Source of the DNA: a bacterium
GTDB lineage: Bacteria > UBP7 > UBA6624
DNA: 27,312 bases
Assembly (NCBI GenBank): GCA_014384545.1
Contig: JACNFQ010000038.1
Span: forward strand, 1 to 27,312
Direction: 5' to 3'
A program made the translations under genes and the position numbers. Of the stretch, positions 3,130-27,312 are shown one piece after another. Positions within the stretch are counted from its first letter, which is position 1. Each line of letters begins with the position of its first letter. The notes beneath the pieces were generated by a model that was not told where the DNA came from, searched no databases, and was given only the letters and a program-made list of their open reading frames with translations.

Positions 3130-5181
3130 CTAGCTCTCTGCCATAGCGATAAAGGGGGCGATGACCAAACTGACGACTGCCATCAGTTTTAGGAGGATAT
3201 TCAAAGAAGGTCCTGCTGTATCTTTGAAAGGGTCTCCCACCGTATCTCCGACAACGGAAGCCTTATGGGCATCAGAACCTTTCCCACCATGTGCCCCCCC
3301 CTCAATATACTTCTTGGCATTGTCCCAAGCACCCCCTGCATTCGCCATAAAGATAGCCATCATGACACCACTGGCAAGGGAACCCGCCAAGAGACCACCC
3401 AACATAGAAGGTCCTCCTGTAAACCCAACCACGATGGGAGCAAAGATCGCTAAAAGACCCGGACCGACCATTTGACGGAGTGCACCTTGGGTTGAGATAT
3501 CGACGCAACGGGCAAAATCTGCTTGTCCTGTTCCGTCCATCAGCCCAGGAATCTCCCTAAACTGTCTCCGTACTTCTTCAACCATTGCAAATGCCGCTTT
3601 TCCGACAGCTGTCATCGCAAAGGAAGAAAAGAGGAAGGGAAGCATCCCCCCTATGAGGAGCCCCACAAGTGTCCTGGGTTCAAAGACATCGATTCCTTCG
3701 ATATTTGTGACAGAAACATACCCTGCAAAGAGAGCAAGAGCGGTGAGTGTCGCACTCCCAATAGCGAACCCTTTTCCGACCGCCGCTGTGGAATTTCCTA
3801 CAGCATCCAACTTATCTGTCCTCTCTCTCACTTCGGGGGGTAGTTGTGCCATTTCGGCGATGCCCCCCGCATTATCAGCGATCGGTCCGTAAGCATCAAC
3901 AGCTAACTGGATGCCCAAAGTGGCTAACATCCCAACAGCAGCCAAGGCGATTCCATACATCCCCATAAGGGAATGGGACGCCAAGATACCACCACCAATG
4001 ACCAGGATAGGCCATGCGGTGCTCTTCATCCCCAAAGCTAATCCCGAAATAATATTCGTGGCTGCACCTGTCAAGGAGTCTTCGGCAATGCCCCTTGCAG
4101 GAGCAGCGGATTCACTTGTGTAATGCTCGGTTATCTTCCCCACAGCGATTCCAACACCCAATCCCACAACGACCGTCCAAAACAGGCTTTGAGCATTCTC
4201 TCCACCCATCAGATTCGTTTTCCACCAAGCGAGAGCTACAAAGACAGCTCCAGCGGAAAAAGAGCCTCTATCAAGAGCTTTCTGGGGGTCTCCATCATCA
4301 TTCGTTTTGACCAGAAAGGTCCCCACCATACTCGCCAAGATGCCCGCCCCAGCTAGAGCGAGTGGTAAGAGGAGCAATCCTTGATTGACATCTCCCCCAT
4401 CAGCATGGGCAACAGCGAGAATCATCGCACCGATAATGGCACCGACATAAGATTCAAAGAGATCCGCCCCCATCCCGGCGACATCACCCACATTGTCACC
4501 CACATTGTCGGCGATCGTGGCTGGGTTTCGGGGGTCGTCTTCGGGGATATCCATCTCGACCTTCCCCACCAAATCCGCACCCACATCAGCCGCTTTCGTA
4601 TAGATACCGCCACCCACTCTGGCAAACAGAGCGATTGAAGAGGCGCCCAAGGAGAATCCCAAAAGGATATCTAGGACTTGGTCATAGGATCTCGCCTCCC
4701 CCCCCGAAGACAACCAAAAGTAAAGGAGCCCCAACCCCAAGAGGGCAATGCCCACCACATTCATCCCCATCACAGACCCACCAGAGAAGGCGACACTCAG
4801 AGCCTCATTCAAGCTGTTCCGTGCAGCGGCAGTCGTTCTAACATTCGCCGATGTTGCGACACGCATACCTAAGAACCCAGCAAGGGCAGATGCGACTGCA
4901 CCCAAGAGAAAGGGGAGTGCAATCAACTCCGTCCCTGCACCCTGTCTTTCGTAGAGGAAATAGAGGAGAATCCCGACGACAACGACGAATCCTCCCAATA
5001 GCCGGTATTCGGTTCGTAGAAAAGCCATCGCTCCGTCAGCGATATGTCCCGCCAACTCTTTCATACGGTCGGTACCAGCATCCTTGCTGTTTACCTTTTT
5101 GGCTTGCCAAGACGCAAAAAGGATAGCCAGCCCTCCAATCGCTGCTGCCATCAGGGGTACCGGAACACCAAATATATCCAT
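3130..5181 (-). CDS. hppA: Membrane-bound ion-pumping pyrophosphatase
   Basis: Integral membrane enzyme that hydrolyses pyrophosphate and pumps H+ or Na+ across the cytoplasmic membrane. It has 683 residues and about 16 predicted hydrophobic segments, standard for the family. Signature motifs are [44 protein letters not shown] and [18 protein letters not shown]. The segment [10 protein letters not shown] has Ala at about residue 466 where K+-independent enzymes carry Lys, so it should be K+-dependent; pumped-ion specificity cannot be fixed by eye. AAGGAG sits about 9 nt before the ATG, within the 3' end of dgt; the genes are 3 nt apart. Placement among PPi-producing functions (tRNA charging, nucleotide metabolism) is plausible for energy recovery but is inference. 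Confidence 0.96.
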
Positions 5182-16184: not shown

Positions 16185-16920
16185 TTAGTTGATGATACAG
16201 GTATCGCGCTGGAAGAAGACTTCATCGGAGACATTCCCCCTCCGGTTGTCTGTCCAGAACGAATAAATCTCATCCCCATAGAAGGCAACAGCAGGGGAAT
16301 GTTGTTTCGTAGGCGAAGCGACAAAGTCGCCCAAGGGGACATCTGTCAGTTGCCATACTGGATCGTTGAACCCGAGGGGTGGCAAATCTTCAGTACATCC
16401 ATAATAGATACGCTCGGCTCCATCCCTGAAATCAGTCCAAACGAGCGCAAGGAGCGCAGCATCGAATTTGTCTAATCGCAACGCGACCGAAGGGTATATA
16501 GATGAGACCGTATTGAGGATATTGTTGACCTGCACCGTCGTTCGCCACGAGCGTCCCAAATCGATAGAAGTCTTGTTATAGACATTATCGCTGTTGAAAA
16601 ACCCAATGTGGAGGCTTGTTCCAGGAGCACCAACCGATTGTGACTCATCCGCCAGACTGGGCCGGATACCCGCACCTAATGTAGTGGAGCTTCGACACAA
16701 TGTACTTGAACCAGTGTTGCAGGCACCGTCTCCCGCTGTTGTGGAGAATCCGAAAGAATGAACCGTATTATTTGCCTCACTTTGGGGTTGATCTTCAAAG
16801 TTGAGGTCAAACCAACCGCCATTGACGGCATCGGGCACATGGACCATCCGTGAATGGTAAATCCGATGAACGGGGTTGCCTGGCGGCAACGAGTCGAATG
16901 TCGTCATCCAAGTTCCTGAA
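16185..16920 (-). other. C-terminal Asp-box/BNR propeller segment
   Basis: Residues about 3465-3708. About four blade-like repeats are visible: TWMTTFDS...RIYHSRMV, LHIGFFNSD, ALVWTDFRDGAERIYYG and IYSFWTDNRRG...VFFQRD. An Asp box, SIDLGRSW, lies at 16545-16568. The motifs resemble the internal segment strongly, as if the two are halves or duplicates of one fold. Confidence 0.65.
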
Positions 16921-19900
16921 CCCGCCAAAGCACCATCTGTTCCACCACTGACAGTCACATTGGCATTGCGGTCATCCGAATCCAAAAGGGTGGGGAGAGG
17001 GTATGTGGAAATCAACGGATGGTTATCTGGTCCCCAACCGAAGAGATTCGCACCAGGTGAGCCACCTGAACTATGGATTTGACCACCATGGGTAGCGACT
17101 GCTGTCGTTTCAATATTACCGACATATCCATCAGTTCCGACCACAAACATCTTCATTCCCTCTTGGGTCTTTAGTGTTCCAGTCGCATGGCGGATATAGG
17201 TCGTTCCTGCAGGAGGAGGGCTACCAAGGAAAGAGTAGTGGAGATAGATACGGCTCTTGTCACCATTCGGTAGGTTTGAACGGATATCCACGATATCACA
17301 GATTTGACCAGATAAGTAGACTTGTCCCGAGTTAATATCAAAGATCTGTGCCGTCTCACCCAAACTGTAGAACGCAGCATCCGCATCATCCACCAAGAAG
17401 ACAGCTTCGTCACCGTCTTGTTGCGGCGAAGCGGCTTTGCAGTCGCCCGAAGCGAATATAGGGTAGTTCAAGATACCGATATCTACGGGTCCCAAATCAC
17501 AAGAGTAGCTGATTCCAAGGTCTTCATCAAAGCAGCTGCTTGAACCTGCAGCAGATTGAATCATTGCATTGTGGTTCCCCGTCGTAATAGCCCTTAGACC
17601 GAAACGCCAGATTCCCGCACCATCAATCTGATAGCTATCCATGGTGAAAGCATTTGTGCTGAAGTCATGACGGTTCAAGTCTCCATCACCACCCGACACA
17701 TCATCAGAACCACCCCAGTAGTTACTGCGGGAATACATACCGTCCCACTCGTAACCTGTGGTGCTACCAAAGCTACCTTGATCCGACAACGGGTCACCAT
17801 CGGGGTCATAGAAAGAAGGAGTAAATCCAACCGTCATAGGCGTAATGCCAAAAAGGTCTCCTGTCGTTTGAGTGATCTGAACCTGAGGAGGATTGTTCAC
17901 AGTAAGCGGGGCGCCTGCACCACCTAATGTGGGGGAGTTATCGTTAGCACAGACTTGATCCATAGTGCGGATACTTACGGGGTCGCTGCTATAGGTAGCA
18001 AATTCCAAACAAGACTCCAATGAGAACCCTTCATCAGAAGGATCGTTATCGAAGAGGTATAGAGAAGGGCGCAAAGCCGATCCGGGTACCGTTACGGTAC
18101 ACGTTAGTCTGTCGGCGTTGGAATCTGGCATACCCGGCTGCGGATAGGTACAACCAACATCATCCGACCAACAATAGTCGGTGTGGTCATCTCCTCTAGA
18201 TGGTCCACCCGGCTGTCCAGGCTTCGCCAACCGATACCCTTCCACATTATCCCAAACGATCTTGTCGTTGGTGCCGTTGAAGGGTTGGTCATAAGGCCAA
18301 CCACCCGTATCATTACAGGACCATTGGGGCTGGAAATCCTCAAACTGTTCTGTGGGGTCGGGGGGATCGGCACTGGGCAAAGCGACACCTTCCGAGAACC
18401 GAATGGGGTCACCATCGGGGTCCCACGAACCCGCGTTCATCAATGTAAAAGTATGAACCGCATTGCTGAAGACATTCCCCGACTGAATCCCCAAATGGGC
18501 AAGCGGGATACGGTTTCTCCATACAGTCATATCGTAGGCATCTGAAACGGGTAGTCCTGCTGGACAGCCCACACCGATATCGGTTTGACAACCGCGAATA
18601 GCGACTCTTCGCTTGATACGCCAATCTCCGTCATTCAAGGGGGGTGTATTGAGCCACAAACCGACCCCCGAAACCTCGTTCAAACACTGGTGCTCCCAGA
18701 AAGCAGGGTTCGCACCATCTTGGGTATCCCCCGAGAAATCGGAAGCGAAGTTGACTCCGTCATAGTCACAATCCACCTCAACGAATAGATTACGTCCATA
18801 GGGGTCATGGCTACGGGAAGCATCGAGGTGGATTAGGGAACTGAATGCACCTGAATCGGGGTCACAATTGGGAAGGATCCCCGCTGGACACTCCCCGGGG
18901 AAGGGTTGGAATCCACCATCTCCTTGATCAAAGAGATAAACCCCATCCGCAATGACATCCAATAGAGTCGCATCGGGCGTCCGGAGTGTTCCGGAATCCC
19001 AATCCAACTGTTGATCCACAGCGCTTGACGGGTAAATACCGATTTGTGGTGGGAGCTGTCTAACAACCCTCACATTGACACTATGGGTGTCTTGGAGACC
19101 AAATGTATCAGTCGCAGTAAGTGAGACAGTAAACTGCGGAAACCCGCCCACGATATCGAGTCCATCGCCAATCCCGTTATAGGTACAAGTCGTCGTTGGC
19201 CCTGCCCCGCCTCCAGTGCCTCCACCACAATCCCAATTGAAACTCAGGGATTGGCCCTCAGGATCCGACGAATTATGGCTAGAGAAAGAGACGACAAAGT
19301 CGTCTGTGCTAGGGTCAAGAATGCTGACCCAAAGGATATGGTCTTCGGTATCTGGGTCGGTATCATCGGGACCCGATGCGACAGCGTGTGGCGCCCTGTT
19401 AACCATATTCCGAACCGGGACTTGGTTGAACTCTGTTTCACCAGCGGCACAACCCAATTCACAACTACCTGGTTGGACATGGGGATCATCGATTCTCAAG
19501 TTGATAGGGGCTACCGAATAGGGAATACCTGGCGTTTGGTTCGCAGGGTATTGGCATCTGTCCTCTTGGAAAGCAAAAGGTGAGAAAGGAGGATCGGTAT
19601 AGGTATTCCAAGTGTCGCCACAATCAAAAGTGAATTGGGAACTATTTAGTTCACTTTCCAAGTCCACGGAGAGATCAGCGACGAGGAGTATGTTTCTCTG
19701 GGAGGCACTACTGTCTACGACCTGAATAAAATCGGTTTGAGGGTCGATATATACCACCGGCATAGGGGGTGTATTCGTAATGCGTGCAATATTATGTGTA
19801 TCTACCACATTCAAAGTAGTGGCGTTGTTGTTACCAGCATCGCTAACCTGTAATGTCACACCAGGTCGCCCCACATCATTATGGGAGCAGGATTCCGTAC

Positions 19901-22900
19901 TTAGTGTTCCCGCCAAAGCACCATCACACCACCATTGGTAAGAGATGGTATCCCCATCGGGGTCCCAAGCCAAGTATCCCACTGCGGGTTCGGATGGGGA
20001 GTGCCAGTTGGAAGTGCTACCTACTGGAAGAACCCAGTCAGACCCATTTTCTGTAGCGACAGCGATAGGCGCACGGTTCTGCCAAACCTCAAAGGCCACA
20101 TACTCCGTGTCAAGAATCGCATTCTCTTGAGCTGTAGCACCATTCGCGACGAGGAGGTCCTCAAGGAGAGGCTCAGGGAAACTCAAGAGATCCCCCACAC
20201 AATCATCCACAGTAGCGACTGTTACCTTGGCGGAACCAGAGACTTCAAAGAGACGCACTTGGTCCCCGCGGGAAATTCCAAGATTGGCACAGCCACCGCC
20301 AATGAGCTGAACCGATGTATCACCCGCCGTTCCACTCACCGCAAAACTGCTCTTCGTATCAATCGCAATTCGTGCTTGGAGCGCGGTCAAGTAATTATCT
20401 GCCAAAGGACTCAAGTTGTCGATAAAGATCCGGTCAAGGAGACTGACCACACGGGCGTTATCAATCGTTTCGTAATCATCCGCCAATCCCAAATTGATGT
20501 TCAAGCGATCGTCACCCAATGCACCACCTCCCGTAATACAGGAAGCGACCGTCGTTGTCGTAGCACCAATCGTCATGGCATCATCCTCAATACGGACAGG
20601 ATTGCCAGCTTGGTATGCCTCTGCGGCACATTGTCCTACCCCAATATCGACGAAAGTGTCAGCAGCTGTTGCATCCGAACTGATCGGATCAATGATGTCA
20701 GTGGCGTCACAGAGGGTTACTGTAGAGAAAGTATCCGTTGTACCACCGCCGTTATCAGTGACACGAACAGCCGTTCCTGGCACATAGCCTCCCACACAAA
20801 CACCATCCGCCACATCGACCCAATCATTACCAAACGCACCATCTCTAATCAAGAGGTTTTGGTCGGCAACACAAGAGCCACTTGACCCAAATGTAAACCC
20901 ATCCCCGTCTGACAAATCACAAACTTCATAAGTAACGGTAAAAGTATCTGGACCCGCTGGATAGGGGTCGGCAAACTGACAAGTAAATGTGGGTGTAAGG
21001 TGATTGCCCGCATTCGTCTGCCCGTTACCACAGTCAATAGCATATTCCAGAGCCGACCCATCTGGGTCAAAACTATCACTCAAATCAATCTCCACGGCGT
21101 GGAATCCACTCCCAATCGCATCACCACTGTTATAGGAAGCGATCGCAACGGGGCGTTGGGGTTGACCTGGGTCATTCACCCAAACGACGACGACGCGCAC
21201 ATCCTGTGCCTCAGCCCCATTCGGATTCGCCTGAGGATTTCCTTGGTCATCATCCTCTACACGAATCGCAATCAAGTTAGGTCCATCCGGGGGTGCAGCA
21301 CAGAAATCACTACTAGACGAAACAGCGTAAGAGGGCAAACCAATATCCCAATCACAATCAATCTCAAACTGGGAAATACCATTGTTGACGAGCAACTCAC
21401 CATCCAAATCCCTAGAGTCAGAAGCGACCCACGAGATTGGCTGACCAGAAGGATGGTTCACATAAGGACCCGTAATCCTCAGTACACCTTGTGGTCTTTG
21501 GTTGTGCTCCGAAACATATACATCAAGAGATGAAGTATGTGAGAGAAGAGTGCCACCTGGTCCCCCATCATCCTCAACCGTCAAATCAACGGTGTAACCA
21601 GTAGGTAGGACAGCTGGCAAAGTGTATTCGCATGTCCAAGTAGCGTCACTAGACCCTGTCCAGTTCGTTAGGGTACCACCTGTACAGGCGGGCGTATAGG
21701 TAGTAATAACACCATCTAGATCGTGGGAACGGGAGCCATCAAAGTCCACACCAAAGATTCCCGAAGGGGGAATATCACCCAAATCCTCGGTACCCGAAGC
21801 CAAAACGAAAAAGGCGATCGGTCCGCGGTTCCGAGAAAGATCATCGCAAGGTGTGCCATCATTAGGACAGTCCCCCACATAAATCGTCGTCGTTACAACC
21901 TTAGAGGCCCCTTCGGCATCCGTTACGGTCAGTTCCACGGTGTAATCATGCTCATCTGAATAAGTGACTGCAGGGGGCGATATGCCTGTGGAGGTAGCAG
22001 GTGTGGCACCACCGAACGCATCGGCATCAAAGTCCCATGCGTAGGTGCATCCATCACAATCGGTTGGGTCAGCCAAAGTGACATCATCAGAGTCAACAGC
22101 AACAGCCGTAAACGCAACAGTCGTACCACTAGGGAAATCGCCTACAAAGGGTGTCGCTTGAATCGCTGCCTGAGGAGGCTCATTCTCCGGGGGCAAAACC
22201 CGTACCGTAATCTGATGATACCCCTTTACTCCCAGATTGTCAAAGACCCGAAGTCCAACGACTCCTTCTCGGTAACAGTTCAAATCTGTTCCAGCCGCAT
22301 TACATGCTCCCGAAACACCACCCGAAGAAACAGGCAATCCAAAGGTATCTCCGACAATCGCAGAAAGGAGACCATCCGCCAACCCATCATCATCATCTTG
22401 GTCTGTGAGTGTAAAGTTTGCAGGTACACCATCCCAAGTCCCCGTCAAATCCCATTCACAAGATTGGGTCAAATCCCTTTGGACATGACCATCAGGGTCT
22501 ACACTGGAACGACAATCTAGACTGAGTGTCGCTTCCCATATCAAGTTGTCCACGTATTCAGGAACAATCGGCCCCAAAGTAAACGCTGCTTCTGGGGCTT
22601 GATTCCCCGCTAATGGGTCGTGGTCATACCCGGGATCGATAGCGGCATCATCCGCGTACCCCAAAGAGATAGTTATATCTTTCGTCCCAACCTCGCCTTG
22701 GTTATCGGTTAGCGATAGCCTCACAGTCCAATCACCGACCGAGGAATATGTACAGAACGCTGTCCCATCACTATTGGTGAATAGTGTAGGAGCAGTCGTG
22801 TCTGGATCAGCCGACAAGTTATCCGCATCACAATTCCAGACCGCAGTCGCCGCAGGGTTGAAGCCAGCTCCATCCTCACGATCAAAAGAAGCTCTTCCAT

Positions 22901-25900
22901 CTAGACAGATAGAGAAAGAAGGGGTCGTTGCTGGGTAAGAAGAATGGTCCAAGACACCAGCAGTTTCTGTGCTTGTACAAGCCCCAAAGCCCAAGTCTGG
23001 ATATCCCAGCTTGATGAAGGCTTCAGGAGCATCATTTCCATAATCATCCAGATAAAACTCCGATGTAATCACAGGAGAACAGTTCGCCGGTTCAATCGTG
23101 TCACAAGCGCGCATCCAAATGCGGGGGCGGTAATCACCTGAGTTATATCCAAGGGGGTTATTCAAGGTAAGTCCCACCGAAGTGCCATTAGCAGTGGGCA
23201 ACCAATTGGCAGGGTTTTCGTCCCAGTCCACCATCCATTCACAGGAGACCGTATTCGAAGCACCACCACCGCCACCCGGACCATCGGGATCCCAAGTACC
23301 CCGTGTGTTAAACCCTACGGTCCATTGGCACTGTGCGGTTACATTCATCGAACCGACCAAACTATCAAGTTCACCCAAAGCCCTACCCGACTGCCCGGGT
23401 TGCGATGTGGCGTTCAAAAGACGCATAGCAGGAACGGGAGGTCGGTTTGTGTCGGTATCAATTGCCAACCACAAAACGGCACAATCAACACCACCATCCA
23501 CATCCGTTACTCTTAGACCGACCCGCTTCAATCCAGGGGTGGAATAAGGACCAGCCACGACAACACCCAAACCACTACCATCAGCAAAGGCTCCAGACAA
23601 ACAGGACTCCTTGGGGTCGCCAGCACCATCTAAATCCGTTTCATAATTGAAGTCATAAGCACAAGTCAAAGGAATCCCTGCAGGGACATCAGGATCAATA
23701 GAATCAAGGAGTCCCAATCCCACAAAATCGGTATCACCCAAACAAGAGAGATTAAAGGTATCACTATTTACAGAACCACTAGTGGGCTGTGCAGGATCCA
23801 ATGTCAAAATCGCTTGCGGAGCGTTGTTCAATCGGGTCGAAAAGGTATTATCTTCAACCCACTCACCATTGTCACAGATGCCGTTGGGACCTACATCGCA
23901 CATAGCGTGATACATCTTAGCCAAGCCACCACTTGACTCCTCAAAGACCACATGCCAGAACCCGTCAAACATGAGACCCGTTCCAGCGGGTTCAATCGAT
24001 AGAGCGGGACCATCTTGGACACCAGGTCCGCTCCCGTGGATCGCTGAAGGCACTGTGGTAGGTGCACCCCAAGTTACGCCCTTATCCGTTGATTCGACCC
24101 ACCAAATATCTTGGTCGCCTGTGTTGTCATCAGAGTAGAAAACGACGAGGTGATCGCCAAGAGGGTCGTTAGGATCAATCACCAAATCCGGGCTCGTAGC
24201 CGAAGAAGAACAGGGGGAAAGATGTGAGATATTCATCGGAGTTGGGTCCCAAGTGACATCGCCCGTAAAACCAAAATCAATATCCGCATGGTGGAAATAG
24301 ATTTGGCTTTGACCCAACGCGCACTCGTGGTCGTCAGACCACACAGCGAATAAGTGGTGCCCATCACTTGATACTTCAAGAATCTGTTGACCGGGACCAT
24401 TCGTGGAAGCGTTCGTTGCTGGGGGGTCATTACCAGAGATGAGTTGGTCGGTGCCCACCGTCAAGGGAACCTCCAAAACGCTTTGGGGCTCTCCTTCAAC
24501 ACAGGCAACAGGTGTCCAGTTAGAAGAAACAGGGTCTTCCACATCCAAACAGACAGGCGAACCTTGGGTCCCTTCGGCGTCTGTCGCTTTGACAGCGACA
24601 CGGAATTGCCCCGCTGCAGGGAAAACAAAACCCTGACCATCCACGCCCGTACCCGTGAGGGAATTCGCTTCCCACTGAACCTTGTTCATCGTCGTGGGGT
24701 CCGAGCAATCATTCCCTGGATCATTCGGAGGAAGAACGGTCGTTGCGCCTGTTAGATCTTCTGAAAGATCCGTAAAAAAAGCCGAACCATCATAGGAGAA
24801 GTCCCACCTGAGGGTAGATAGGGAATCGTCATCACAAATGGAGACACCAAAACCGACGAGCCCGCCCGTAGCTGGGTCAACCAATGGAGTTCCCCCACCA
24901 TTCTTAGGATCAATCAAAGTTTCATCGTCAAGTAGGGCTGTGAAAGCGCCTTGGGGCGGTGTATCAACTCCATATATCCAGAGTAGAGAAATCTCGGGGG
25001 CTGTATTGGCAGTGACCGTTACAAAAGAAATATCGTCATCCTCAACCAATCCGTCTGATACTTTCACGGCGGCAACATAAGATGCTAGATTGGTTGTATA
25101 GGTGTGGTTAAGGGTAGGCGTTGCCGTGGATTGCTCGGTATTGAAAATACTTACCTTCGCACCTTGGACGGTTGTGTAATTGTCAAGTAAGGGATCATTT
25201 AGGTTCAGTTGCCCAGCAGGAGCACAACTGATCGCAGTCGTTACAGTCGGTGTGGTGGTGATGTTGTCATCCACCTCAACTCTCTCTCCCCCCACCACAT
25301 TGGAACAATCACCCACGAGGACAAAGGGGTCGTTGAGATTACCATCCGATAGAAGAATAGGCTCTTCATACGCAAAGTCCCAGTCAAATACGAGCGTAGC
25401 GTTGGGGCTTGTATCTGTATCAAAGGAACCACTTGCATCAAACTGAACTTGGAAAGCGGAGGGATTGGGGTCAATCACCGTAAAAGCTAAGTCTGCAATG
25501 GGAGGAATGTTCTCACTGACCGTTACAGGAGCCGTTCGCGTATTACAAGCCAACTCGCCCGGATGAGGATCCACATCCGGCAAATCACAGTTGTCGTCCA
25601 ATACGGATACAGACAAGGTGACCGCCTGAGATCCTGTCCCAGGAACCAATGAACCCGCCTCCCAAGAGATATCCGCAAAAACGGTAGGACCACCGAAATC
25701 AATCTCAACACAGACCGGATTGCCCGCACCACCCGTACCCGGCTCGCAGAAGCGCCCCTCGTCCATTGTGCTAACCAAACCACCCAATATCTCATCCACA
25801 CTTACATCTAATGGATCGGCAACCACCAAAGTTCCAGTAGGAATACCTGCCGTACAAGAAACGACAGTCGTCCTATTATTCACCAATGATTCACCAGGAT

Positions 25901-27312
25901 TGTGGGGCCATACTGGGCGCCCATCAAAAAGACCACTACAAGAGCCAACCGGAATCGTCGAAGAACCCACAGGCGCACTCCCAAAACCTGAACCATCAGA
26001 GACAGTTGTTTCCACATGGGCGTCAGGACCAGGAGGGCCACCATAGTCTCGTAGAGCATCCCAAACATATTCCATGGTGTGTGTGCCATAACCAGGACCA
26101 TCCGAATCCGTTGCTTGGACCGACACATCAGACGCTGTCGTTTCTACAAGGCTAGATGGCGTCGCAGTCGGTCCTGCCGTTATCGTAGGGGGGTTGTTCA
26201 AATCGGGAGCAGCCAAAACGACTGTCATCAACGCAGAATCCGACGTATCACAATCTATCGTCCAGTTAGTAAATGGGGTGGAGTGGTCTTCAGCCAGACC
26301 CCCCAAGTCGCAGGAGAGGAAGCGATACCCCTGACCGTTCTTGAAGAGTGGACCCGGGTCTCCAACTGCGTTGACAAGGGGGCTCCTCAAAGTAATAGTA
26401 TCCTCTGTAGCTGTTCCTACAACACCTACACCAATAATATCTTGGGGGGTTGCAGGGGACGCATCGATACTCCAAACGACCCATTGCATCCCGCGCACTC
26501 GGGCACTGTTGGTGGTTAAATAGTCGTCTGCCAAAACGAACCCAGATTGGAGAGATACGATAAACGTATCGGGATCACAAGACGCAATCTTGGCGTAAGT
26601 GGGTACCGAAAGAGGGTCACTGTCCATCACCTGAATCCAACGATTCGTTTCCATCCCCAAACAGCTATTTACAGCCACCTGACTAGCACCAACAAAAGCA
26701 CCCGCCGTCAATGGTGTTTCTACGGAATCTTGCACACCGTGGGTCGTTACAAACGAGCCACTATCTGATTGTAGTGTTGAAGCACTATCACCAACAACAG
26801 TCTGTGTAGCCGTGCCCTGACCTTTGTCATCACCCACCGAAACGACAACAGGCATCTCACAACGAGCTGTTAGGCGAGCACCATCAGCGACTTGGAGGTT
26901 TTCGAGCAAGTCAGTATCCAACCGAACCACGCCAGGCCCCGCAATACCACATTCCGCAGTATCAAAAATAGCATCAGCATTGCCATCACACTCAACGACC
27001 AAACCATCAGTAGGTCCTTGCCCCGCTAATGTCCCCATATTGTCATCCATCGCTCTAACAGGCAACCCCGCACCAAATGCCAGAAGATTCATAACCTGAA
27101 CTTCGTCCTGCCCTGTTCCCCCATTCGCATCAGCAAAGAAGAAACTTTGAGCAGTGGAATCCAACAGTCCCGGCGTACCGCCCGCCACATCAAACTCTGG
27201 ACCAACCGTTTCGGCATGATCGCCCTGAGACACGCCATCACCCAATCCAAAGGGGGAAGGAATAAAGTCCCAGTTAGAACTCCCAAAAAGACCAGGACCG
27301 CCTCCCGTCAAA
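16185..27312 (-). CDS. Giant PKD-repeat extracellular protein, 5' end off window
   Basis: One uninterrupted frame of about 3,708 codons that reaches the right edge without a convincing start, so the protein is longer. It is acidic, rich in Asp, Gly, Ser, Thr and Pro, and has no long hydrophobic segment. About 17 PKD/cadherin-like units are separated by linkers such as NRAP, NQAP and NEPP and contain strands like YAWDFDAD and YTVELTVTDAEG. Many carry an added Cys pair. Two Asp-box (sialidase/BNR-like) propeller segments lie at about residues 979-1158 and 3465-3708. Eight copies of a further, usually cysteine-paired module are inserted. Together these suggest a secreted or surface-anchored adhesin or carbohydrate-binding protein; this is inference, as no signal peptide or anchor is visible. 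The C-terminus ends at RDTCIIN with no sorting motif that I recognise. Confidence 0.9.
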   Translation of the reverse strand, partial: LTGGGPGLFGSSNWDFIPSPFGLGDGVSQGDHAETVGPEFDVAGGTPGLLDSTAQSFFFADANGGTGQDEVQVMNLLAFGAGLPVRAMDDNMGTLAGQGPTDGLVVECDGNADAIFDTAECGIAGPGVVRLDTDLLENLQVADGARLTARCEMPVVVSVGDDKGQGTATQTVVGDSASTLQSDSGSFVTTHGVQDSVETPLTAGAFVGASQVAVNSCLGMETNRWIQVMDSDPLSVPTYAKIASCDPDTFIVSLQSGFVLADDYLTTNSARVRGMQWVVWSIDASPATPQDIIGVGVVGTATEDTITLRSPLVNAVGDPGPLFKNGQGYRFLSCDLGGLAEDHSTPFTNWTIDCDTSDSALMTVVLAAPDLNNPPTITAGPTATPSSLVETTASDVSVQATDSDGPGYGTHTMEYVWDALRDYGGPPGPDAHVETTVSDGSGFGSAPVGSSTIPVGSCSGLFDGRPVWPHNPGESLVNNRTTVVSCTAGIPTGTLVVADPLDVSVDEILGGLVSTMDEGRFCEPGTGGAGNPVCVEIDFGGPTVFADISWEAGSLVPGTGSQAVTLSVSVLDDNCDLPDVDPHPGELACNTRTAPVTVSENIPPIADLAFTVIDPNPSAFQVQFDASGSFDTDTSPNATLVFDWDFAYEEPILLSDGNLNDPFVLVGDCSNVVGGERVEVDDNITTTPTVTTAISCAPAGQLNLNDPLLDNYTTVQGAKVSIFNTEQSTATPTLNHTYTTNLASYVAAVKVSDGLVEDDDISFVTVTANTAPEISLLWIYGVDTPPQGAFTALLDDETLIDPKNGGGTPLVDPATGGLVGFGVSICDDDSLSTLRWDFSYDGSAFFTDLSEDLTGATTVLPPNDPGNDCSDPTTMNKVQWEANSLTGTGVDGQGFVFPAAGQFRVAVKATDAEGTQGSPVCLDVEDPVSSNWTPVACVEGEPQSVLEVPLTVGTDQLISGNDPPATNASTNGPGQQILEVSSDGHHLFAVWSDDHECALGQSQIYFHHADIDFGFTGDVTWDPTPMNISHLSPCSSSATSPDLVIDPNDPLGDHLVVFYSDDNTGDQDIWWVESTDKGVTWGAPTTVPSAIHGSGPGVQDGPALSIEPAGTGLMFDGFWHVVFEESSGGLAKMYHAMCDVGPNGICDNGEWVEDNTFSTRLNNAPQAILTLDPAQPTSGSVNSDTFNLSCLGDTDFVGLGLLDSIDPDVPAGIPLTCAYDFNYETDLDGAGDPKESCLSGAFADGSGLGVVVAGPYSTPGLKRVGLRVTDVDGGVDCAVLWLAIDTDTNRPPVPAMRLLNATSQPGQSGRALGELDSLVGSMNVTAQCQWTVGFNTRGTWDPDGPGGGGGASNTVSCEWMVDWDENPANWLPTANGTSVGLTLNNPLGYNSGDYRPRIWMRACDTIEPANCSPVITSEFYLDDYGNDAPEAFIKLGYPDLGFGACTSTETAGVLDHSSYPATTPSFSICLDGRASFDREDGAGFNPAATAVWNCDADNLSADPDTTAPTLFTNSDGTAFCTYSSVGDWTVRLSLTDNQGEVGTKDITISLGYADDAAIDPGYDHDPLAGNQAPEAAFTLGPIVPEYVDNLIWEATLSLDCRSSVDPDGHVQRDLTQSCEWDLTGTWDGVPANFTLTDQDDDDGLADGLLSAIVGDTFGLPVSSGGVSGACNAAGTDLNCYREGVVGLRVFDNLGVKGYHQITVRVLPPENEPPQAAIQATPFVGDFPSGTTVAFTAVAVDSDDVTLADPTDCDGCTYAWDFDADAFGGATPATSTGISPPAVTYSDEHDYTVELTVTDAEGASKVVTTTIYVGDCPNDGTPCDDLSRNRGPIAFFVLASGTEDLGDIPPSGIFGVDFDGSRSHDLDGVITTYTPACTGGTLTNWTGSSDATWTCEYTLPAVLPTGYTVDLTVEDDGGPGGTLLSHTSSLDVYVSEHNQRPQGVLRITGPYVNHPSGQPISWVASDSRDLDGELLVNNGISQFEIDCDWDIGLPSYAVSSSSDFCAAPPDGPNLIAIRVEDDDQGNPQANPNGAEAQDVRVVVVWVNDPGQPQRPVAIASYNSGDAIGSGFHAVEIDLSDSFDPDGSALEYAIDCGNGQTNAGNHLTPTFTCQFADPYPAGPDTFTVTYEVCDLSDGDGFTFGSSGSCVADQNLLIRDGAFGNDWVDVADGVCVGGYVPGTAVRVTDNGGGTTDTFSTVTLCDATDIIDPISSDATAADTFVDIGVGQCAAEAYQAGNPVRIEDDAMTIGATTTTVASCITGGGALGDDRLNINLGLADDYETIDNARVVSLLDRIFIDNLSPLADNYLTALQARIAIDTKSSFAVSGTAGDTSVQLIGGGCANLGISRGDQVRLFEVSGSAKVTVATVDDCVGDLLSFPEPLLEDLLVANGATAQENAILDTEYVAFEVWQNRAPIAVATENGSDWVLPVGSTSNWHSPSEPAVGYLAWDPDGDTISYQWWCDGALAGTLSTESCSHNDVGRPGVTLQVSDAGNNNATTLNVVDTHNIARITNTPPMPVVYIDPQTDFIQVVDSSASQRNILLVADLSVDLESELNSSQFTFDCGDTWNTYTDPPFSPFAFQEDRCQYPANQTPGIPYSVAPINLRIDDPHVQPGSCELGCAAGETEFNQVPVRNMVNRAPHAVASGPDDTDPDTEDHILWVSILDPSTDDFVVSFSSHNSSDPEGQSLSFNWDCGGGTGGGAGPTTTCTYNGIGDGLDIVGGFPQFTVSLTATDTFGLQDTHSVNVRVVRQLPPQIGIYPSSAVDQQLDWDSGTLRTPDATLLDVIADGVYLFDQGDGGFQPFPGECPAGILPNCDPDSGAFSSLIHLDASRSHDPYGRNLFVEVDCDYDGVNFASDFSGDTQDGANPAFWEHQCLNEVSGVGLWLNTPPLNDGDWRIKRRVAIRGCQTDIGVGCPAGLPVSDAYDMTVWRNRIPLAHLGIQSGNVFSNAVHTFTLMNAGSWDPDGDPIRFSEGVALPSADPPDPTEQFEDFQPQWSCNDTGGWPYDQPFNGTNDKIVWDNVEGYRLAKPGQPGGPSRGDDHTDYCWSDDVGCTYPQPGMPDSNADRLTCTVTVPGSALRPSLYLFDNDPSDEGFSLESCLEFATYSSDPVSIRTMDQVCANDNSPTLGGAGAPLTVNNPPQVQITQTTGDLFGITPMTVGFTPSFYDPDGDPLSDQGSFGSTTGYEWDGMYSRSNYWGGSDDVSGGDGDLNRHDFSTNAFTMDSYQIDGAGIWRFGLRAITTGNHNAMIQSAAGSSSCFDEDLGISYSCDLGPVDIGILNYPIFASGDCKAASPQQDGDEAVFLVDDADAAFYSLGETAQIFDINSGQVYLSGQICDIVDIRSNLPNGDKSRIYLHYSFLGSPPPAGTTYIRHATGTLKTQEGMKMFVVGTDGYVGNIETTAVATHGGQIHSSGGSPGANLFGWGPDNHPLISTYPLPTLLDSDDRNANVTVSGGTDGALAGSGTWMTTFDSLPPGNPVHRIYHSRMVHVPDAVNGGWFDLNFEDQPQSEANNTVHSFGFSTTAGDGACNTGSSTLCRSSTTLGAGIRPSLADESQSVGAPGTSLHIGFFNSDNVYNKTSIDLGRSWRTTVQVNNILNTVSSIYPSVALRLDKFDAALLALVWTDFRDGAERIYYGCTEDLPPLGFNDPVWQLTDVPLGDFVASPTKQHSPAVAFYGDEIYSFWTDNRRGNVSDEVFFQRDTCIIN
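17173..17417 (-). repeat. Inserted module copy 8, divergent (residues ~3299-3380)
   Basis: EAVFLVDDAD, GETAQIFDINSG, LSGQICDIVD and SRIYLHYSFLG...GTTYIRHATG follow the same strand order with only one clear internal Cys. It sits between the last PKD unit and the C-terminal region. Confidence 0.45.
20121..20327 (-). repeat. Inserted module copy 7 (residues ~2329-2397)
   Basis: TSVQLIGGGC, GDQVRLFE, VTVATVDDC and LSFPEPLLEDLLVANGATA fit the module. Copies 5, 6 and 7 form a tandem block inside one PKD unit, between YEVCDLSDGDG and YVAFEVWQNRAP. Confidence 0.7.
20328..20663 (-). repeat. Inserted module copy 6 with doubled tail (residues ~2217-2328)
   Basis: The clearest copy: FVDIGVGQC, GNPVRIEDD, TTTTVASC, LNINLGLADDYETIDNARV. 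It is followed by a second tail-like segment, IDNLSPLADNYLTALQARI, suggesting internal duplication of the module end. Confidence 0.7.
20664..20831 (-). repeat. Inserted module copy 5, shortened (residues ~2161-2216)
   Basis: WVDVADGVC, GTAVRVTDNGGG and FSTVTLCDATD match the first two thirds of the module. The usual closing tail is replaced by DPISSDATAADT, which runs straight into copy 6. Confidence 0.65.
23840..24378 (-). other. Internal Asp-box/BNR propeller segment
   Basis: Residues about 979-1158. It has three blade-like repeats, LFAVWSDD...QIYFHHAD, LVVFYSDDNTGDQDIWWVES and WHVVFEESSGGLAKMYHAM. An Asp box, STDKGVTW, lies at 24069-24092. This is the repeat found in sialidases and related beta-propellers. 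No sialidase Arg triad can be recognised, so a binding role is as likely as catalysis. Confidence 0.65.
25143..25334 (-). repeat. Inserted module copy 4 (residues ~660-723)
   Basis: FVLVGDC, GERVEVDDN, VTTAISC and LNLNDPLLDNYTTVQGAKV fit the pattern closely. It lies inside one PKD unit, after VFDWDFAYEE and before LNHTYTTNLASYVAAVKVSDG, so it occupies a loop of that domain. Confidence 0.7.
25767..25967 (-). repeat. Inserted module copy 3 (residues ~449-515)
   Basis: IPVGSCSG, GRPVW, RTTVVSC and LVVADPLD fit the module, with a more divergent tail (DEILGGLVST). It interrupts a PKD-like unit between its YVWD strand and the later ADISWEAG and VTLSVSVLDD strands. Confidence 0.6.
26496..26690 (-). 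repeat. Inserted module copy 2 (residues ~208-272)
   Basis: VAVNSC opens the module, IQVMDSD occupies the G-x-x-V-R-x-x-D position, IASCDPD gives the second Cys, and LADDYLTTNSARV closes it. Cys-to-Cys spacing is about 35 residues, consistent with an internal disulfide. Confidence 0.65.
26865..27107 (-). repeat. Inserted module copy 1 (residues ~69-149)
   Basis: Matches the pattern G-x-x-V-R-x-x-D-D, a later Cys, then V-R-L-D-x-x-L-L-E-N-x-x-x-x-x-G-A-R-L. The tail LLENLQVADGARL is the same as that closing the other copies. The first half is longer than usual and carries its cysteines in VECDGNAD and TAECGIAG. Confidence 0.55.

Follow-up and report, generated by a model that had tools for sequence, protein, structure and literature searches.

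A giant gene in the analysed DNA encodes seven copies of one common module, which is, by structure prediction, a small beta-barrel of about 70-80 residues. The DNA analysed (the window, 27,312 nucleotides) is an entire contig of a 1.39 Mb draft genome. The account favoured here, to which we assign a probability of about 0.62, is that a barrel of the rider type has been multiplied in a giant lipoprotein gene, where it sits in loops of PKD or Ig-like domains and once within itself.

The giant host protein

The giant PKD/Ig-like protein is encoded at 16185..27311 on the minus strand as a single open frame of 3708 amino acids with matches to PKD_4 and PKD; the frame runs off the contig, and the N-terminus lies beyond the contig end. 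Orthologues of about 4137 amino acids occur in two genomes that share the family of the source genome, apparently in candidate phylum UBP7, but belong to another genus; in them the full-length genes are located at L018:1073-13486 and L019:5688-18098. A gene of this size is very large for such small genomes (about 0.9-1.3 Mb, as incomplete drafts). The window protein and an orthologue are 43% identical across the aligned part, and a gpsA-like gene adjoins the giant gene both in the window and in the one orthologue genome that was checked. The orthologue N-terminus reads as a putative signal peptide of the lipoprotein type, ending in FSAC, and the giant protein appears to be exported. Its C-terminal region gave no match in a Pfam search, and no relative of the full giant protein was found in the viral contigs searched.

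Two Asp-box (BNR-like) motifs, STDKGVTW (24069-24092, minus strand) and SIDLGRSW (16545-16568, minus strand), are separated by about 2,500 residues, a layout also seen in the orthologue; the STDKGVTW segment gave a weak BNR_2 match. The two segments possibly belong to a single beta-propeller that the PKD array divides, or to two distinct propellers. Elsewhere in the window, a membrane pyrophosphatase-like protein of 683 amino acids (3130-5181, minus strand), named by eye only, lies beside pyrB/pyrC/carA-like genes.

Seven copies of one module

The copies, all on the minus strand, were evaluated by a leave-one-out procedure in which the held-out copy was removed before re-alignment and model building. 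The re-alignment matters, as a joint alignment that includes the left-out row lets shuffled sets reach E 1e-12. All seven copies (M1-M7) were recovered: copy 1 at 26859..27125 (residues 63-151; E 6e-8), copy 2 at 26484..26711 (residues 201-276; E 3e-9), copy 3 at 25764..25982 (residues 444-516; E 3e-7), copy 4 at 25143..25340 (residues 658-723; E 2e-10), copy 5 in two halves at 20685..20849 (front, residues 2155-2209) and 20355..20435 (back, residues 2293-2319; E 1e-13 for the copy), copy 6 between these halves at 20436..20678 (residues 2212-2292; E 2e-15) and copy 7 at 20121..20342 (residues 2324-2397; E 4e-9). The best of 420 shuffled sequences reached E 1.2e-4, and the best of 420 other segments of the giant protein, which may include true PKD paralogues, E 4e-7. 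The module model finds copies 1, 3, 6 and 7 in the orthologues, in which copy 5 is marginal, the correspondence of copy 2 is ambiguous and copy 4 is absent from both. By pairwise score, copy 6 is closest to copy 4; a tree of the copies gave no resolved branching order, and a search among them for a DNA-level trace of duplication found none.

The initial annotation had described eight copies sharing one pattern. Seven of these stand (E 3e-7 to 2e-15), and the tail sequences quoted for them were found in place, whereas the eighth, given as 17173-17417 and evaluated at 17169..17435 (minus strand), is at noise level and not supported: its leave-one-out E was 0.014, and it scored 1.5 bits where shuffles of it scored as high as 3.4. 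A stretch after copy 2 (26304-26483, minus strand), considered as a divergent barrel (TITLRSPL...GQGYRFLS), was also at noise in the leave-one-out procedure.

The copies might instead have been ordinary long PKD loops whose likeness is due to chance or composition: the giant protein has many Asp/Thr-rich loops, and random segments of it sometimes match one another. This reading is already refuted for the seven copies, all of which pass the controls; against it also stand a confidently predicted independent fold and the exact presence or absence of 66 residues at copy 4, both described below.

Both conserved cysteines are present in six of the seven window copies, in agreement with the earlier description of the module as usually cysteine-paired, and in ten of the twelve distinct copies when those of one orthologue are included; the exceptions are the two versions of copy 1. 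In the window, copy 1 keeps the second conserved cysteine and lacks the first, and carries a further cysteine, within a long insertion close to the second one, which from its position could be an alternative partner. In the orthologue, neither conserved cysteine is present in copy 1. Because the giant protein appears to be exported, the conserved pair probably forms a disulfide.

Insertion into PKD domains and into the module itself

Copy 4 interrupts a PKD domain. It is an exact 66-residue insertion and the sole insertion of at least 15 amino acids in the window protein relative to the orthologue in the reliably aligned part; the beginning of the alignment is unreliable, as the N-terminus is missing from the window protein. 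The insertion point lies shortly past the WDF signature strand: the N-terminal half of the host (25341..25514, minus strand) ends at WDF...SDG, and the C-terminal half (25002..25142, minus strand), delimited by the alignment and the PKD_4 tests, begins with NHTY. The uninterrupted domain of the orthologue matches PKD_4 with E 2.2e-9; the host segment of the window has no match in its native form and, once the module is removed, matches PKD_4 weakly (E 0.054). As compared without an outgroup, the difference between the genera may be either a gain or a loss. In the class of insertion barrels an independent barrel interrupts a host domain; copy 4 does so, as judged from the empty site in the orthologues and the predicted fold.

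Copy 6 is nested inside copy 5, a feature that had not been noticed in the initial annotation. With its halves joined, copy 5 scores 35.9 bits; the front half scores 19.6 on its own and reached at most 24.5 bits when joined to each of 500 random stretches. The same nested order recurs in the orthologues, where copy 5 is weak. The block of copies 5-7 likely interrupts a PKD domain as well: the part of the Ig/PKD-like host that precedes the modules (20850..21164, minus strand) gives a weak PKD_4 match (E 0.005) when the modules are left out, and its presumed last strand, proposed from the sequence pattern, follows copy 7 (EYVAFEVWQNRAP; 20067..20120, minus strand). The structure predicted for copies 5-7 as one block was of low confidence (pLDDT 51) and was not used. 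Of the interruptions claimed earlier, that by copy 4 is therefore established by its empty site and that by copies 5-7 is likely, whereas a Pfam search gave no confirmation that copy 3 interrupts a PKD domain.

A further step from these insertions is that the barrel repeatedly inserted itself into loops of one gene, its own copies included, and that one insertion was caught filled and empty between genera; this is possible, if on balance doubtful.

Fold, relationship to the rider barrel and possible role

An AlphaFold2 model of copy 6 (14 alignment rows) has a pLDDT of 93.8 and consists almost wholly of beta strands, with a single short helix. This prediction of a confident, independent barrel speaks against the alternative that the segments are ordinary PKD strands; the module copies match no PKD model, and the predicted fold differs from that of the PKD domain (PF18911/PF00801), although the host of copy 4 is such a domain. 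With Foldseek, the best PDB match of the copy 6 model was K1 lyase (E 5e-4, TM up to 0.80 by query). In VIA comparisons the model matched residues 144-231 of K1 lyase (7W1C) with a Z of 12.1 and an rmsd of 1.9 Å over 79 residues, and residues 289-370 of LKA1gp49 with a Z of 8.7; the latter region coincides with the published insertion domain of LKA1gp49 (283-370; PMC5701251). Barrels of GH110 galactosidases gave a Z of about 7, and generic small barrels (EF-Tu, ATPases) 5-6.

For comparison by sequence profile, a rider profile was made from seven homologous phage sequences together with the K1 lyase gene; each of them matches the Pfam family K1-lyase_Rider (PF24149). The module aligned with this profile end to end in hhalign (75 columns, score 32), whereas 200 column shuffles scored at most 15 and non-module slices of the giant protein at most 20; the match, which is the evidence for remote sequence homology to PF24149, depends on the window rows, the orthologue rows alone giving none. 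The identity between module and riders is 18-24%, and no copy matches the Pfam model at its 27-bit cut-off. Of the features of PF24149, the small barrel fold with a short helix is found in the AlphaFold2 model and the VIA comparison; insertion into a beta-helix depolymerase is not, the host of copy 4 being a PKD domain.

A convergent, lineage-restricted small barrel without common ancestry with the phage riders would also account for a module that shows no detectable single-sequence similarity to catalogued families and is confined to three related genomes of 386 sampled, and small beta-barrels recur in unrelated proteins, which was counted against rider kinship. Convergence is nevertheless considered quite unlikely, given that the profile match is in register from end to end and well above the shuffled and internal controls, and that the rider is, by a clear margin, a closer structural match than generic barrels (Z 12.1 vs 5-6). 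The predicted fold and a kinship to the rider are together held with good confidence, so that the module would be a variant of a known insertion barrel and a distant cousin of the rider. The likeness to a small beta pattern known from phage proteins, noted in the initial annotation, is borne out by the structure and profile matches. Its proposal of an undescribed mobile domain is partly upheld: no sequence model of Pfam, NCBIfam, PHROGs or the PDB detects the module, but the fold itself, that of the rider barrel, is known.

The module and K1-lyase_Rider (Klebsiella phage NTUH-K2044-K1-1; PDB 7W1C/7W1D) share the barrel fold and the strand order over 75 columns, and both interrupt a loop of a larger, beta-structured protein. 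In the rider this host is a beta-helix, whereas that of the module is PKD/Ig-like, and the module differs further in its seven copies per protein, its conserved cysteine pair and its one nested copy. The LKA1 insertion domain is likewise a six-stranded barrel that interrupts its host domain, but it is a single copy in an enzyme, has a beta-helix host and helps form the catalytic groove. The small beta-barrels of GH110 galactosidases are similar and lie beside a beta-helix core; unlike the module, they contribute to dimerisation around the active site, and their match is weaker.

Searches of the copies against Pfam, PHROGs and PDB sequences gave no match, and the whole giant protein gave no relevant match against NCBIfam. 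Among 386 diverse genomes the module occurs in three related genomes, in each only in the giant gene; no copy outside that gene was found in these three carriers, all incomplete drafts of 62-86%. A candidate copy in contig C19 of the source genome was discarded as noise (E 0.3, with a stop inside). The plasmids searched gave no hit, the best match in the phages searched was insignificant (E 4), and nothing was found in 195 genomes of another phylum, a search run without a positive control. The mobility suggested earlier is thus supported within one gene only.

In the favoured account, the barrel would have been multiplied inside one gene, probably via internal duplication. Its ends, which presumably lie close together, would permit insertion into a loop without breaking the host, and one cysteine pair, probably as a disulfide, would hold the barrel. 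In K1 lyase, the rider is a beta-barrel that protrudes from the beta-helix; it contributes to trimer stability and to the binding of sugar (PMC8822698). By analogy, the side-barrels may protrude from and stiffen a rod-like PKD array, and may, like the rider in K1 lyase, add surface for contact with sugars or adjoining chains; this combined role is put forward tentatively, at somewhat less than even odds.

By the same analogy, the barrels could mainly be repeated carbohydrate-binding sites with the PKD units as spacers, as the inserted barrel helps form a sugar-binding groove in K1 lyase, LKA1gp49 and KP34gp57 (PMC8822698, PMC5701251, PMC10653864) and the giant protein contains BNR-like segments. 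The grooves of those enzymes are, however, built with a beta-helix, which was not detected in the giant protein, and a mainly sugar-binding function is regarded as rather unlikely.

Under the favoured account, the rider or insertion barrel, reported chiefly from phage tailspikes and glycosidases, would now have a cellular example, in many copies and nested in itself, in the giant lipoprotein of a bacterium from a candidate phylum. Insertion domains built as such barrels have been described before in tailspikes and GH110 enzymes; distinctive here are the cysteine pair, the self-nesting and the PKD-loop setting, and PKD loops are a new host for the barrel. The copies provide a seed for a protein family missing from Pfam, and copy 4, its site filled in one genus and empty in another, offers a clean natural pair for testing how one domain tolerates the insertion of another. 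If repeated self-insertion is true, the giant gene would be a natural system for studying the insertion of domains into domains.
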